From assembly GCA_030425485.1 (NCBI GenBank), contig JAUIAM010000029.1, forward strand, positions 1 to 39,463: a stretch of DNA of 39,463 nucleotides. The letters run 5' to 3'. The DNA is from Verrucomicrobiia bacterium. Its GTDB lineage: Bacteria; Verrucomicrobiota; Verrucomicrobiia; Opitutales; Cerasicoccaceae. Shown piece after piece: positions 4,327-14,387 of this stretch. Under the pieces are notes generated by a model. It made no database searches. It was not told the origin of the DNA and was given only the letters and a program-made list of their open reading frames with translations. Position 1 is the stretch's first letter, and every line of letters starts with the position of its first letter. Made by a program: the position numbers and the translations under genes.

Positions 4327-5289
4327 CTACTTAAGCAGTTCCACTACTGCCGCACTGGCCAAACCAATCAGGCAATATACGCCCAGCGTGATGACTAGCG
4401 GGCTCGCGTTGAGCGGCAGGTTTTCCTGCGGCATGGCCTTGACGGGTAGTTTCTTCTCCAGTGCCGTGATGAGCTCTTCCTTGATAAAAAAGCCGAAGAC
4501 CACGATGGCCGTCATGGAGATGAGCTCCGAGCCGAGCCCGTGGTGGAAAAAGTCGAACCACTTCGTATTCTTCACGATCAGTACCAGCAGGTCTGTCCGC
4601 AAAATACTGATGACGAACCCCGTGCCCAGTGCGGCAAAGAGCATCTTCCAGAAAATGCGGCGCAGCTCAAGCAGCATGAGTAGCAGGATAAAGAAGAACG
4701 AAAACAGCATGTAGAACAGCTTCAGCCCTGAGCACTCGGCAATGATCCGTACCGTGCTGTCTCCGATAAAAATCGTGTCGTGTTTCACCGCGACCTCAAA
4801 GCCTACGTAATGCAGGGAAAAGGCTGAGATCTTTGCCACGATGAGCGAGTAGCCGAATAGGCTCTCGATCAGATTCTCGACCAGGCCCGCAGGCACAGCG
4901 GCCAGGGCAAACAGGCCCAGACACTGCGCATGCAACTTGCTCAGGCGGAACCCAGTGGCAGCGAAGGCTACCCCCAGCGGGCCGAGGATGAATCCCAATC
5001 CCGGCTCGCGCAGCACGCCTTTCAAATCGAGCACGCAAAGCACGCCCGAGGCCAACACCAGGAGGCCCCCCGCCAACATGCCGGGAGTCGAGGGGCGAAG
5101 GACAAAGCGTGCGCGGTTTAAATAAACGCAGGCCAAAGCGGCGGTCACCGCGACGCCCTTGATGGTCATGCGGGCCTTCTCAGTCGAAGTGGTATTGGCT
5201 AGAAACGGTGCGAGGCACACCAGCAGCAGGGCCACAAGCAGGGCTGTTTGCAGGTGCCGGGACAGGCCTGGGCGGACTTCGCTTTGCAT
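4327..5289 (-). CDS. Exosortase/archaeosortase family transpeptidase
   Basis: Exosortases are polytopic membrane cysteine peptidases thought to cut and anchor proteins with PEP-CTERM tails. This 320-residue protein has about eight hydrophobic segments. It carries the three expected catalytic residues: Cys186 in AECSGLKLF, Arg231 in SILRTD, and His249 or His250 in FFHHGLGS. The order and spacing fit the family. No EpsI domain is fused at the C-terminus; the protein ends with one more membrane helix (about 298-316). It lies 6 bp downstream of the HpsJ-like gene on the same strand, so the two are very likely co-transcribed. Three PEP-CTERM proteins elsewhere in the window are plausible substrates. 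The exosortase subtype was not determined. Confidence 0.9.
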   Translation of the reverse strand: MQSEVRPGLSRHLQTALLVALLLVCLAPFLANTTSTEKARMTIKGVAVTAALACVYLNRARFVLRPSTPGMLAGGLLVLASGVLCVLDLKGVLREPGLGFILGPLGVAFAATGFRLSKLHAQCLGLFALAAVPAGLVENLIESLFGYSLIVAKISAFSLHYVGFEVAVKHDTIFIGDSTVRIIAECSGLKLFYMLFSFFFILLLMLLELRRIFWKMLFAALGTGFVISILRTDLLVLIVKNTKWFDFFHHGLGSELISMTAIVVFGFFIKEELITALEKKLPVKAMPQENLPLNASPLVITLGVYCLIGLASAAVVELLK

Positions 5290-5295
5290 CGCTAC

Positions 5296-6180
5296 CTAGC
5301 CCTCGCGCGGCACATCCATGCCTTCATCGCCATCCTCATCGGCCGCACTAACGTCCTTAAAGCCGGAGGCACCCCCTTTGCCCAGCGCGTCCTGCTTGAG
5401 CAGTTGGCGGTAGCTACGGCTCTTGATGAAGAGGAAGAAGAAACCGATCATGGAGACAACCGCCCCCAGCACGCCCTTTACCAACGTAATAAAGAGCGAG
5501 CGCACCTGCGACCGGTAGTTTACCTCCAGCGTCTCGGTGCGCTCCGCGTGAAGCTTGCGGTAAATGTCTTCAATGTTCTCCTTGAGCTTCAGCAGCTCGG
5601 GCTCGGCGTAGAGGCTGGTCTTGAGACCCAGGTCCTGTGTACGGGCGCGAATTTCCTCCACGCTATCCATTTCATAGAGCGCATCCATGGCGACCTCGAC
5701 CGCAGTGCTGCGCTGCTCCAACTCGCTGGCGCGTACGCGGTTTAAACCCTCATAAATGCGGTTCGCCGTGATGATGCCAAAGGGCAGGACAAAGATGTAG
5801 CACAACGCCAGGCCAAGGGCGATCCACGACAAGAGCGCGCGCGCCTTAAGCTCGATGTACGAGGTGGTGTTGGCCAGCGGGGTCAGGATCAAAGCCAGAC
5901 CAAAGAGCGGCCCCCAGACGTGGTCCACTAGTTGTCCGAAAAAGCGAAACTCCCACAAGGGATTCATGAAATCCATCGGGGCCAGGATGAACAGGTAATC
6001 CAGCAACCCAAAAACAAGGAACAGCACGCCAATCCACGGCATGATGCTCTGCATACTGGCAAAGGACTCGGCCCGCAAACGGATACGCCGATCGCGTTTG
6101 TTGGACTGGGTACTCTCGGGACTGGGATCGCTATCCCCGCGCCGACGAGAGGAACGGGAGCGCCTGGAACGTCGTGACAT
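5296..6180 (-). CDS. HpsJ-like membrane protein, exosortase-associated
   Basis: The 294-residue protein starts with an Arg/Ser-rich basic cytoplasmic tail (residues 1-40). A hydrophobic segment (about 46-68) is followed by LNP-type text (MNPLWEFRFFGQLVDHVWG) and two more membrane segments to about 140. Next comes a charged, probably coiled-coil region (about 148-225) with many Glu, Arg and Leu residues, then a last membrane helix (about 228-252) and an acidic tail. The N-P-x-WEF..G.LV...PL.GL block resembles HpsJ of cyanobacteria, where HpsJ-like proteins accompany cyanoexosortases. I infer that it supports the exosortase encoded immediately downstream, perhaps in the export of anchored proteins or polysaccharide. 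The family assignment is from memory of the motif and has not been searched. Confidence 0.65.
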   Translation of the reverse strand: MSRRSRRSRSSRRRGDSDPSPESTQSNKRDRRIRLRAESFASMQSIMPWIGVLFLVFGLLDYLFILAPMDFMNPLWEFRFFGQLVDHVWGPLFGLALILTPLANTTSYIELKARALLSWIALGLALCYIFVLPFGIITANRIYEGLNRVRASELEQRSTAVEVAMDALYEMDSVEEIRARTQDLGLKTSLYAEPELLKLKENIEDIYRKLHAERTETLEVNYRSQVRSLFITLVKGVLGAVVSMIGFFFLFIKSRSYRQLLKQDALGKGGASGFKDVSAADEDGDEGMDVPREG

Positions 6181-8992: not shown

Positions 8993-11206
8993 TTGAGGAC
9001 GACTTCGATAACCGCCTGGGTACTCGGCGCGCTGTGCATTGCGGTGGGCCTGGGCGTCGCCGGATTCGCGCTCTGGCCCGGCAAGCCCGCCCCCCTTGCC
9101 CAATCGACTCCCTCGCCGCAGGCTGCTTCTGCTTCTCCCTCAGCTATCACCGAGCCTTTTCCAGAAACCTTCTTTCCCGAGCGGCATGCCAAGCTCAGCG
9201 CGACAGCCTGCATGGCCTGCCACGAGGATGTCTTTGCCGACTGGGAGCACAGCCACCATGCCCTGGCCAACCGTCCGCTCGACCCGGCGCTGGACAAGCC
9301 CGCCTTTAGCCCGCCCCGGGAAGTCGTCGGCGACGGCGTTGCCATGACCCTCACCCTCAACAGCGGGCAGCCCGTGCTCATTGCCACCGACCTCAAGGGC
9401 GAGAACACCGAGTACGCGCTGGGCGGCGTCATCGCGCTCACCCCCATGCGGCAGTACCTGGCCCGCTTCCCCGGTGGACGCTGGCAGGCCACGAGCCTGG
9501 CCTACGATCCACAGGCCAAGGACTGGTTTGACGTCTTTCACGGCGACGGACGCCAGTCCGGCGAGTGGGGGCACTGGACTGGACAGGGCATGAACTGGAA
9601 CGCCAACTGCGCCTGGTGTCACATGACCGATTACCAGAAGAACTTTGACCTCGAAACCAACAGCTACCACTCCACCTGGCTTGAACAGGGCGTCTCCTGC
9701 CTGCAGTGCCATACGGGCATGGAGGAACACGTCGCCAACGCAGGCAAGCCCGGCTACACCTCCACGGTCAAAACGCTCAGCACGGAGCAGATCATTCAAA
9801 ACTGCGCATCGTGCCACTCCCGACGCGACGAAATCAACGGGGACAGGTTCCGCCCCGGCGACGACTACCACCAGTTCTTCAGTCTCTCCCTCCCCGATCA
9901 ACCCGGCCTCTACTACGCCGATGGACAGATCCTCGACGAGGACTACGTCTACGCCTCCTTTCTCATGAGCAAAATGGGCCACGCGGGCATCAGTTGCCTC
10001 GACTGCCACAGCGCCCATAGCGGCGAGACCATCCTGCCCTACGAAAACAACGCCCTGTGCATGCGTTGCCATGATTCCGGCCTCAACGGTGCGACAGTCA
10101 TTAAGCCAACCGAGCACAGTCACCACGCCGAGGGCAGCACCGGAAACCGATGCGTTTCCTGCCATATGCCCGAGACCACCTACATGCAGCGCGACCCCCG
10201 GCGAGACCACGGCTTTCTCTCTCCAGACCCACACATGACGCTTGAGCTCGGCATCCCCAATGCGTGCAGCACTTGCCACAGTGACCAATCCGTTGAGTGG
10301 GCCGTTGAGTGGACAGACAAATGGTACGGCGACAAGCTCGCGGCCAAGCCCCAGCGTCAACGTGCCCTCGCCCTCTCGCTGGCCTACGCCATTGAGCCAG
10401 AGGGAGCCGACGCCCTCCTCGCCCTGGCCCGCATGGAGGAGATAGCCGCCTGGCGCGCCACCTATGTCGGCCTGATGGAGCTCTACCTGGACAGGCCGGA
10501 TGTGCTGGCTTATGTGCGAAGCGCCCTGAATGACGAGAGCCCGCTGGTCCGCGAACGCGCCGTGCGCAGCCTTTCCGCTATCCCACAGGCCCTGCCCGAG
10601 CTCCAGCCATACCTGCGAGACGCATACCGCAATGTCCGCCTCGCCGCAGCGCGGGCCTTCGTCAGCCACCGTCAGCCCATCCCAGACCCGACAGCCGCAG
10701 CGGAATGGCGCGCCTACCTGGAGTTTCACGCCGACCGCGTCGACGGAGCCTTTCAACTGGCCAACATGGCCATTGCCGAAAATCAGCCGGAGCAGGCCAG
10801 GCAACTTATCGAGCAGGCCATGCAGCTGGATGTATCGAATTCCGACGTCCTGCATCAGGGAGCCGTGCTCTACAGCATGCTGGGCGAAAACGCCAAGGCC
10901 CAGCCGTTGCTCATGCGCGCCCTCCAGCTCGCCCCCGGCAACCCCTCCCATCACTACGCCCTCGGCCTGCTCCTCCACGAACAGGGCAAAACCGAAGAAA
11001 GTCTGGTATACTTTAAAAACGCCGTGCGCCACGACCCGGAGTTCTACCGCGGCTGGTACACGCTCGGCCTGGCCTATACCAAGCTCGAACGCTGGCAGGA
11101 AGCCCTCGAAGCCCTCCAGGAGGCCTCCCCCGGCATGGCCTACGACCCGGGCTGGCAGCAAGCCTACGCTATCACCGCGCGTGCTCTACGCGACCAGCAA
11201 CGCTAA
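8993..11206 (+). CDS. Eight-haem c-type cytochrome with C-terminal TPR repeats
   Basis: The 737-residue protein has an N-terminal membrane anchor or signal (about residues 7-28), a Pro/Ser/Ala linker and eight CxxCH haem-binding motifs. These begin at residues 73, 206, 236, 271, 335, 356, 387 and 425. The stretch GHWTGQGMNWNANCAWCH and the preceding GGVIALTPMRQYLARFPGG match a family of TPR-containing multihaem cytochromes (cytochrome c554-like) known from Planctomycetes and Verrucomicrobia. After residue 440 comes an alpha-helical HEAT-like part, then TPRs (about 585-725). It probably acts in periplasmic electron transfer; substrate and partners are unknown. The start is a TTG, as no upstream ATG or GTG gives the signal sequence. 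It stands alone, without maturation or reductase genes. Confidence 0.88.
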   Translation: MRTTSITAWVLGALCIAVGLGVAGFALWPGKPAPLAQSTPSPQAASASPSAITEPFPETFFPERHAKLSATACMACHEDVFADWEHSHHALANRPLDPALDKPAFSPPREVVGDGVAMTLTLNSGQPVLIATDLKGENTEYALGGVIALTPMRQYLARFPGGRWQATSLAYDPQAKDWFDVFHGDGRQSGEWGHWTGQGMNWNANCAWCHMTDYQKNFDLETNSYHSTWLEQGVSCLQCHTGMEEHVANAGKPGYTSTVKTLSTEQIIQNCASCHSRRDEINGDRFRPGDDYHQFFSLSLPDQPGLYYADGQILDEDYVYASFLMSKMGHAGISCLDCHSAHSGETILPYENNALCMRCHDSGLNGATVIKPTEHSHHAEGSTGNRCVSCHMPETTYMQRDPRRDHGFLSPDPHMTLELGIPNACSTCHSDQSVEWAVEWTDKWYGDKLAAKPQRQRALALSLAYAIEPEGADALLALARMEEIAAWRATYVGLMELYLDRPDVLAYVRSALNDESPLVRERAVRSLSAIPQALPELQPYLRDAYRNVRLAAARAFVSHRQPIPDPTAAAEWRAYLEFHADRVDGAFQLANMAIAENQPEQARQLIEQAMQLDVSNSDVLHQGAVLYSMLGENAKAQPLLMRALQLAPGNPSHHYALGLLLHEQGKTEESLVYFKNAVRHDPEFYRGWYTLGLAYTKLERWQEALEALQEASPGMAYDPGWQQAYAITARALRDQQR

Positions 11207-12490: not shown

Positions 12491-12823
12491 ATGCAAGCCG
12501 CACAATTCTATCGTTGCCTGAGTGAGCCGCTCCGCCTGCGCATCCTCCACCTGCTCGCGGAGGGGCCGCTGTGCGTATGCCACCTGCAGGAGGCCCTGGA
12601 GGAAAATCAGGTCAAAGTGTCAAAGCACCTGGCCTACCTGCGCCGCTGCAAACTCGTCGACCGCCACAAGGAAGGCACCTGGGCCCACTACCAGCTCAAC
12701 CCCGAGGCCGGCCCCTTTCTAATCGAAAACCTGAAACTCTCCTCCCTCTACTCCGAGGAACGTTCCTGCTTCGAGCACGACCTCGCCCGGCTCAAACGCG
12801 CCAAAATCGAACTTTGCCAATAG
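12491..12823 (+). CDS. arsR: ArsR-family arsenic-responsive repressor
   Basis: ArsR repressors bind operator DNA as dimers and release it when As(III) binds. This 110-residue protein has the typical winged-helix order: [20 protein letters not shown], then the sensor segment [10 protein letters not shown] with Cys28 and Cys30 in the As-binding helix, then [20 protein letters not shown] (recognition helix and wing). The CxC pair matches the classic ELCVCDL motif of arsenite sensors, although the third Cys of plasmid R773 ArsR is not in the same helix. The gene starts 8 bp after the operator palindrome. It is followed 4 bp later by arsC, so arsR, arsC and acr3 form one operon. Confidence 0.94.
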
Positions 12824-12827
12824 CATC

Positions 12828-13274
12828 ATGAACAAACCCACCGTCCTCATCCTCTGCACCGGAAACTCATGCCGCAGCCACATGGCTGAAGGCATCCTGC
12901 GTCACGAAGCCGGCGACCTCTTCGAAGTCCGCAGCGCCGGGTCGAAGCCCGCGGGCTACGTCCACCCGATGGCCATCGAAGCTCTGAGGGAAATCGGCAT
13001 CGACATTTCTGCGCACACCTCGAAGCACCTCGACCAGTTCAAGCACGAGGATATCGACACCGTCATCACGGTGTGTGGTAACGCCAGCGAGGCCTGCCCG
13101 GTCTTCCCCGGTCAGATGAACCGCTACCACTGGGGCTTTGAAGACCCGCCTAAGGCCGTACGCCCCGGCGAAAGCGAGCTCGACGCCTTCCGCCGCATCC
13201 GCGACGAGATCCAAAAGGTCTTCCAAGCCTATGCCAGCGGTTACCGCCAGGCATTCTCAACATCAGCACGATAG
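12828..13274 (+). CDS. arsC: Arsenate reductase, low-molecular-weight phosphatase type
   Basis: This cytosolic enzyme reduces arsenate to arsenite for export. The 148-residue protein carries the phosphatase P-loop CTGNSCRS with Cys10, Cys15 and Arg16. It also has the redox pair Cys83 and Cys90 in [10 protein letters not shown], equivalent to Cys82 and Cys89 of the thioredoxin-linked S. aureus enzyme. The DPP motif (FEDPPKA, about 105-110) supplies the acid. These features point to the thioredoxin-coupled ArsC class rather than the glutaredoxin-type E. coli ArsC. It lies 4 bp after arsR and 15 bp before acr3, in the same operon. Confidence 0.93.
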
Positions 13275-13289
13275 CACTTTTATTCTGTC

Positions 13290-14387
13290 ATGACCAAAGC
13301 CACCACCCTCCCCGCATGCCCACCCTGCAAGAAGAAGCTCGGCTTCCTTGATCGCTTCCTCACTCTGTGGATATTCCTCGCCATGGCGGTCGGAGTCGCC
13401 ATCGGTGCACTCTGGAACGGAGCGGATGATTTCCTGAACCGCTTTCAGGTCGGCACGACGAATATTCCCATTGCCATCGGGCTCATCCTGATGATGTACC
13501 CGCCGCTGGCCAAGGTGCGCTATGAGGAAATGCCCCGCGTTTTCCGCAACGTAAAGGTGCTCATGCTCTCGCTCGTGCAGAACTGGATCATCGGTCCGGT
13601 GCTGATGTTTCTGCTCGCGATTCTCTTCCTGCCCAACCACCCCGAGTACATGACGGGCGTCATCCTGATCGGGCTGGCCCGCTGTATCGCCATGGTCATC
13701 GTGTGGAATGAGCTCGCTGAGGGGGACAACGAGTACGCTGCCGGGCTCGTCGCCTTTAACAGTGTTTTCCAAATCATCTTTTTCAGCCTCTACGCCTGGG
13801 TCTTCATCACCTGGCTGCCCGACCTCTTCGGGCTCGAAGGTAGCGTCGTGGCCATCAGCATGGGCGAAGTGGCCCAGAGCGTACTCATCTACCTGGGCAT
13901 CCCCTTCTTTGGCGGCATGCTCACGCGCCTTATCGGCGTGAAGCTCAAGGGCCGTAAGTGGTATGAGCAAACCTTCATCCCCAAAATCAGCCCCGTCACG
14001 CTGATCGCCCTGCTCTTCACCATCGTGCTCATGTTCAGCTTCAAGGGGGACAAGATTCTGGAGCTGCCCTTCGACGTGCTGCTCATCGCCGTACCGCTGA
14101 CAATCTACTTCGCCATCATGTTCGTGGTCAGCTTCTTTATGGGCAAATGGGTCGGTGCCGACTACCGCCAGAGCGTCACGTTGAGCTTCACCGCGGCCAG
14201 TAACAACTTCGAACTCGCCATTGCCGTGGCCGTCGCGGTCTTCGGGATTGGCTCCGGGGTGGCCTTTGCCGCGGTCATCGGGCCACTGGTCGAAGTCCCC
14301 GTCATGATCGCCCTGGTCAACCTCGCCTTCTGGATTCGCAAGCGCTACTTCGCGCATGAGTCCCAACTTGCCAGCAGGACTAGCTGA
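13290..14387 (+). CDS. acr3: Arsenite efflux permease, ACR3 family
   Basis: ACR3 exports arsenite across the inner membrane using the proton motive force. The 365-residue protein has about ten hydrophobic helices. It carries the key family segment [22 protein letters not shown] with Cys132, the essential residue in characterised ACR3 proteins. The second repeat has [22 protein letters not shown], also typical. An N-terminal hydrophilic stretch contains two extra Cys residues (10 and 13, in CPPCKK), as in many bacterial members. It is the last gene of arsR-arsC-acr3. No arsA, arsD or arsenite methyltransferase gene is present. Confidence 0.95.

Follow-up and report, generated by a model that had tools for sequence, protein, structure and literature searches.

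The question raised by this locus is whether HpsJ, a membrane protein family whose HpsJ_like_A type NCBIfam curators already link to cyanoexosortase A in the model names, is also coupled to an exosortase outside Cyanobacteria and, if so, what it may do there. The window analysed here, the whole stretch of 39,463 nucleotides of contig JAUIAM010000029.1 (assembly GCA_030425485.1), belongs to a member of the Verrucomicrobiia (Opitutales; Cerasicoccaceae) and carries such a pair of genes. The original prediction held that the pair is a functional module shared across phyla. By sequence, the presence of a CrtA-type/HpsJ/PFE-CTERM sorting system outside Cyanobacteria is well supported, and the idea of a shared module stands with a qualification: the pair appears to be part of a larger system, in which HpsJ is linked not only to the enzyme but also to substrates.

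The HpsJ–exosortase pair of the window

The features of the locus, all on the minus strand, are the following.

5296..6180 (−): HpsJ-like membrane protein (HpsJ_like_A type), 294 aa, from HpsJ profile matches, AlphaFold2 and hydropathy
5947..5964 (−): N-P-L-W-E-F block of HpsJ, residues 73–78, after the first transmembrane segment, from alignments
5290..5295 (−): 6-bp spacer separating the HpsJ stop codon from the exosortase start, from the sequence
4327..5289 (−): exosortase of the cyanoexosortase-A lineage, 320 aa with 8 hydropathy-predicted transmembrane segments, from profiles and tree
4732..4734 (−): codon of the predicted catalytic Cys186, in an A-E-C-S-G motif, from alignment
4597..4599 (−): codon of the predicted catalytic Arg231, from alignment
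4543..4545 (−): codon of the predicted catalytic His249, from alignment

An HpsJ-like gene with an N-P-x-W-E-F block lying 6 bp upstream of an exosortase is what had been proposed, and both the coordinates, which proved exact, and the profile matches, which lie far beyond chance, bear this out. From their spacing, the two genes are likely to share one transcript. The match to HpsJ is significant: NF038305 (HpsJ_fam) reaches 83.4 bits against a cut-off of 60, which makes the protein a member of the HpsJ family, and NF050013 (HpsJ_like_A) gives an E-value of 1.9e-40 and 138.8 bits, missing its cut-off of 140 by 1.2 bits. The HpsJ_like_B model scores 32.3 bits (cut-off 260). Two other HpsJ proteins of the same genome score 150.2 and 136.7 bits with HpsJ_like_A, and the enzyme-linked HpsJ proteins of three genus-mates about 63–70 bits. 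Residues P74, W76 and E77 are invariant in two alignments and are found as well in the HpsJ of the cyanobacterium Halotia; W76 is absent from some paralogues that are linked to substrate genes.

The exosortase passes the cut-offs of PF09721 (68.8 bits, cut-off 25.7) and TIGR04178 (30.9 bits, cut-off 23) and carries the Cys/Arg/His set, which places it in the exosortase/archaeosortase superfamily. Its best named model is TIGR03763 (CrtA), at 62.1 bits under a cut-off of 150. Cys186, Arg231 and His249, which we take to be the catalytic residues, are nearly constant among 48 aligned exosortase ORFs, some of them badly called (Cys in 44, with three gaps and one Val; Arg in 48/48; His in 47, with one gap). 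No match to the CrtA-associated domain (TIGR04153) was found at this locus, either fused to the exosortase or in an adjacent ORF. Around the pair lie purC, proB, frr and pyrH, genes that serve neither polysaccharide synthesis nor export.

HpsJ is laid out as a charged N-terminus, transmembrane segments, a helical hairpin, a last transmembrane helix and a charged C-terminal tail. Hydropathy gives three strong segments in the window protein and four in some paralogues, and the AlphaFold2 model built from six sequences (mean pLDDT 73.5, pTM 0.54) consists of transmembrane helices and a long helical hairpin. The positive-inside rule would place the basic N-terminus in the cytoplasm and the hairpin in the periplasm. 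Comparison of this model with solved folds returned no match, the best hit (E 0.025) reflecting a general long-helix similarity. A sequence search of the PDB gave one chain for HpsJ at E 0.77, which is not credible, and none for the exosortase, whose own AlphaFold2 model was poor (pLDDT 48) and was not used.

Lineage of the enzyme and its cyanobacterial counterparts

The pair is kept in 4/4 genomes of the genus, with gaps of 6, 137, 166 and 214 bp, and one of these genomes has only 2 contigs; because of this conservation, the pair is no assembly accident. Each of the four carries three HpsJ-like genes and three exosortases. The two remaining exosortases of the window genome, both PF09721 matches, lie on contigs C17 and C28, neither of which holds an HpsJ gene. 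Among the 10 genomes of the family, exosortases occur in all (46 matches) and HpsJ in 5, the same five that carry a CrtA-type exosortase, so that the presence of HpsJ tracks that of the CrtA type in 10/10 genomes. The five HpsJ partners are CrtA-like, and none of the 41 other matches is, as judged for 26 of them by tree, for 16 loci by profile (5 of which are also in the tree) and for 4 more by profile. With a local exosortase profile whose members include the window enzyme, the five partners score 215 to 278 bits; among the 16 further loci, 8 reach at most 50 bits and 8 have no match at E ≤ 1e-5, and the last four matches give 46.8, 40.7 and 13.3 bits and, in one case, none. Near another exosortase type of the same family, two large proteins that look by eye like Cas9 are encoded on the minus strand (L082, 5498–8761; L087, 5549–8794).

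In the exosortase tree, for which the cyanobacterial sequences were thinned to every second row and in which, as in the second tree below, long branches were flagged, the five partner enzymes form one group (100/98). This lies within a set with cyanobacterial CrtA (98/94), made up of 24 CrtA-labelled rows and L129, and CrtB and 26 further family exosortases fall outside that set; the C17 and C28 enzymes fall in a group separate from that of the window enzyme. The phylogeny proposed as a check on the window exosortase hence gives it a shared ancestry with CrtA, and not with the remaining exosortases of its host. For nine sampled rows, the CrtA or CrtB label was checked by profile. Among six CrtA rows, L129, L178 and L122 pass TIGR03763, and three fused ones stay just under its cut-off of 150 (L118, 146.6 bits; L208, 120.7; L117, 114.6); two CrtB rows score 420–467 bits, and CrtB forms a group separate from the window enzyme.

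In Cyanobacteria, the CrtA (TIGR03763), HpsJ_like_A (NF050013) and PFE-CTERM (NF050011) families are the same three protein kinds as in the window genus, with HpsJ adjoining the exosortase. The substrate tails have the same build, V/I-P-F followed by a hydrophobic helix and a basic cluster, and the enzymes group together in the tree. The window pair differs in that it belongs to another phylum, has HpsJ first and is without an adjacent or fused CrtA-associated domain; in the window genus, moreover, two of the three HpsJ genes per genome sit with substrates. Among 292 cyanobacterial genomes, HpsJ_like_A exceeds its cut-off in at least 39 and PFE-CTERM in at least 12, counts from the genome searches being lower bounds, with only the best first-pass candidates scored. 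HpsJ_like_A is found in 11/12 of the PFE-CTERM genomes (the exception is G469) vs 28/280 of the others (Fisher p 6.7e-10).

Of the 51 cyanobacterial HpsJ loci examined (49 over the HpsJ_like_A cut-off and two under), some on contigs that end nearby, 40 have a CrtA-type exosortase no more than 2 kb away, lying upstream of HpsJ in 28, downstream in 10 and on the opposite strand in 2. Together with the 5/5 HpsJ-bearing genomes of the family, these loci confirm the expected co-occurrence of HpsJ homologues with exosortase genes. Nine of the 49 over-cut-off genes have no exosortase within 2 kb, and only one of them, L177, has an evident PFE-type gene directly upstream. A direct substrate–HpsJ order is seen in two cyanobacterial loci, L177 (tail of 22.9 bits; no exosortase in the stretch examined) and L201 (36.9 bits). 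A stricter tail pattern found no substrate beside the 11 exosortase-less HpsJ genes of the 51; it missed L177, whose tail is without the required Pro or Gly.

The closest parallel in gene order is the plasmid NZ_CP124544.1 of Halotia branconii, where HpsJ also precedes the exosortase, at 28 bp. Its HpsJ is about 30% identical to that of the window (E 5e-12), and proteins with VPFDIPGG-type tails are encoded close by. Unlike that of the window, the Halotia exosortase (CrtA 114.6 bits, with a further recorded score of 84.9 bits) is fused to the associated domain (167.1 bits), and glycosyltransferase genes then follow. The same plasmid has a second HpsJ without the N-terminal part (L117, 4888–5439, minus strand), near a transposase gene. 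In Trichormus, an HpsJ ORF of 93 aa (L123, 7893–8174, plus strand), in which the first and last parts seem to be joined without the helical middle, adjoins an intact exosortase gene.

It could be argued that HpsJ is a general factor of polysaccharide synthesis, found near exosortases only because both serve the cell surface. The glycosyltransferase genes of the Halotia A-type locus would agree with this, and so would the hormogonium-related name itself, which derives from the hps genes of Nostoc (PMC10581220). However, the window pair and, by eye, the substrate pairs described below lie away from such genes, and within the family HpsJ follows the CrtA-type exosortase in 10/10 genomes, so that a polysaccharide factor appears improbable; the linkage of HpsJ to both enzyme and cargo would fit better with an escort or adaptor. 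The putative B-type system of Nostoc, HpsJ with CrtB, has the HpsJ family in common with the window. Deletion of crtB in Nostoc is reported to abolish motility, biofilm and scytonemin (PMC12188702), in a paper that makes no mention of HpsJ. A literature search returned no paper joining 'exosortase' and 'HpsJ', and did not find 'PFE-CTERM'; this is weak evidence, as most subscription journals are outside the reach of the search.

HpsJ genes beside putative cargo

The pair itself is real, as the original prediction had it, and what that prediction missed is that the third component of the A system of Cyanobacteria, the PFE-CTERM signal (NF050011), is present too. In 4/4 genomes of the genus, the two HpsJ copies that do not adjoin the enzyme lie directly downstream, on the same strand, of a gene for a secreted-looking protein that ends in a short C-terminal signal, for example VPFGVNPLPGLAIIGFFGWRRLRKR. 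The signal model, NCBIfam NF050011, has a cut-off of 24; because it covers only 28 residues, weak PFE-CTERM genes may go undetected. A first tail pattern also picked up many antisense ORFs, and NF050011 scores and conserved context were used instead. In a scan of five HpsJ-linked proteins, two passed (34.7 and 33.5 bits) and three failed (20.1, 19.6 and 15.9), and the search of the four genus genomes gave scores of 39.2 (L074 locus), 37.8 (L078) and 13.6 bits (L079). Three places of the window genome were flagged over the cut-off, at 38.1, 24.3 and 23.9 bits (24.3 with neighbours); as called proteins, gene calls being longest-ORF calls, they score 34.7, 21.1 and 20.1, only one being clear of 24. 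The window genome accordingly has at least one PFE-CTERM protein. Several substrate tails stay under the cut-off, at 13.6 to 23.9 bits, and each genus genome has 3 to 6 signals at E up to 1.

The substrate pairs of the genus are not eight independent cases, as they comprise two recurring pairs (L067, L071, L074 and L078; and, at a yidC locus, L072, L075 and L079) plus L068. The gaps between substrate and HpsJ run from −59 to 200 bp. PFE-CTERM genes without an adjacent HpsJ also occur in the genus (L110, L111, L112), and the notion of one obligatory HpsJ per substrate was dropped. In a group of six substrates, comprising the HpsJ-linked L067, L071, L074 and L078 and the HpsJ-less paralogues L111 and L112, one Cys (residue 82 of L067) and one Gln (residue 158, within A-F-Q-L-A-x-W-E-L) are invariant. 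These recall the residue pair of a thioester domain, a lead on which the Pfam TED model stays below threshold (E 0.13). L111 and L112 adjoin a gene that looks by eye TatC-like. A gene of a genus-mate gives a partial match to Verru_Chthon_A, at 37.9 bits vs a cut-off of 332.3.

The position of these extra copies beside apparent cargo suggests that HpsJ helps to select or handle it. The main rival to a role in sorting holds that HpsJ acts after cleavage, taking the processed substrate and fixing it to polysaccharide or passing it to an outer-membrane exporter, so that each product has its own fate. Direct placement downstream of the substrate genes at such gaps would suit this, and glycosyltransferase genes come after the HpsJ/CrtA pair of Halotia; against it, other HpsJ copies adjoin the enzyme itself, and the surroundings of the window pair contain no gene for polysaccharide or export, which leaves a post-cleavage role rather unlikely.

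When 372 genomes of the order were searched with our own profile (E ≤ 1e-8), HpsJ was detected in at least 7, which carry 19 HpsJ genes and include members of two more families. Seven of these genes adjoin an exosortase, 10 others directly follow a PFE-CTERM-like gene, and 2 have neither neighbour. The second HpsJ of G390 and the loci of G693 and G903 served as out-of-sample checks. In another genus of the window's family (G390), a PFE-like substrate (22.7 bits, under cut-off), the exosortase and HpsJ (142.1 bits) follow one another with overlapping ends, and a second HpsJ, at the same yidC locus as in the window genus, has a PFE-like substrate directly upstream (19.2 bits, under cut-off). G903, of a further family, has substrate, exosortase and HpsJ (103.3 bits) in consecutive order, so that its exosortase locus, like that of G390, also contains a substrate gene; the tail of the G903 substrate gave no PFE-CTERM match at E ≤ 1. 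The third case, G693, likewise of a further family, has four HpsJ genes. One has, 17 bp away, a CrtA-type exosortase (130.2 bits vs a cut-off of 150) that carries a fused CrtA-associated domain (54.4 bits vs a cut-off of 100), another is behind a PFE-CTERM gene of 32.2 bits, and two (L239, L242) adjoin neither exosortase nor substrate. The HpsJ-like ORF of L242 (2231–3544, plus strand; 437 aa) has a long charged C-terminal extension.

Across the phylum, HpsJ exceeds its cut-off in at least 3/387 genomes, and PFE-CTERM in the same 3/387; among the matches listed, the phylum and cyanobacterial samples have no genome in common. The co-occurrence looked for in the wider survey is there, yet HpsJ is rare. 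In 16 of the 19 phylum genomes with HpsJ matches at E ≤ 1e-3, the matches stayed under the cut-off, lay largely in the helical part and were put down to chance; one of them is in the family of G903. Weak PFE-CTERM matches, under the cut-off, were found in G314 and G383.

A second exosortase tree kept 11 of the 26 other exosortases of the family and had two rows fewer on the CrtB side. In it, the G693 and G903 enzymes fall among fused CrtA from Anabaena and Halotia (100/91 and 98/87), and with these two genomes added the enzymes nest in two places, a hint that transfer between phyla took place more than once. As for HpsJ, a tree that left out the two most distant loci does not reject a single clade for the 14 family rows (p-AU 0.557), and in a second one, which left out nine distant or near-identical loci, 18 of all 19 rows fall together with modest support (82/84), G903 being apart on a very long branch.

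Such transfers might also mean that HpsJ and the substrates merely hitch-hiked with a transferred cluster and stay together without a joint function; the nesting of the G693 and G903 exosortases with fused cyanobacterial CrtA would be in line with this. The linkage, however, persists over long branches, is shared by two genera at the yidC locus and recurs at different loci (L067, L068, L072, L241), and with 3 to 6 signals per genus genome the number of such pairs expected by chance is estimated at far below one overall. Neutral hitch-hiking is the least probable of the explanations considered, and a very remote one.

A model for HpsJ in substrate sorting

By sequence criteria, the window genome brings together the three families, with HpsJ linked both to the enzyme and to substrates, an exosortase of common descent with CrtA and its Cys/Arg/His set, and the window genes would represent the enzyme locus of a CrtA-type/HpsJ/PFE-CTERM sorting system. 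The model proposes that substrates leave via Sec and would be held in the inner membrane by the C-terminal signal, in which V/I-P-F, in many cases with N/S-P behind it, precedes a hydrophobic helix and an Arg/Lys cluster. At the outer face of the membrane, the exosortase would cut at this signal and perhaps transfer the protein to an acceptor. The helices and hairpin of HpsJ may hold the substrate, and pass it to, or receive it from, the exosortase, an arrangement from which we infer a cargo adaptor. The HpsJ next to the enzyme would then be a general or enzyme-bound copy, and most others could each serve the substrate whose gene directly precedes theirs; not every substrate needs an HpsJ of its own, because the PFE-CTERM genes of L110, L111 and L112 have none beside them.

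HpsJ is thus probably a membrane accessory of the CrtA/PFE-CTERM system that has been duplicated and assigned to single substrates. A more far-reaching version can be offered only tentatively: HpsJ proteins would be substrate-dedicated exosortase escorts, one copy serving the enzyme and the others co-evolving with a single cargo and choosing what is sorted, and the cassette would be portable, having crossed phyla more than once, with a three-gene operon of substrate, exosortase and HpsJ, as in G903, for its minimal form. Outside its known phylum, then, HpsJ pairs physically with single cargo genes and with the enzyme. This cargo pairing makes the accessory protein testable, in genus genomes with only 3 to 6 detectable signals.

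Other genes were seen in the window, all on the plus strand. A long protein encoded at 8993–11206 has by eye several C-x-x-C-H haem-binding motifs in its first half and tetratricopeptide-like matches in the second. In one ORF, at 1383–2390, a Fic-type domain precedes a MerR-like DNA-binding domain, the NCBIfam matches all being under cut-off. A small arsenic cluster at 12491–14387 comprises an ArsR-like regulator (by eye), an arsenate-reductase-like protein of 129–130 bits, under cut-off, and an ACR3 arsenite transporter of 449 bits.
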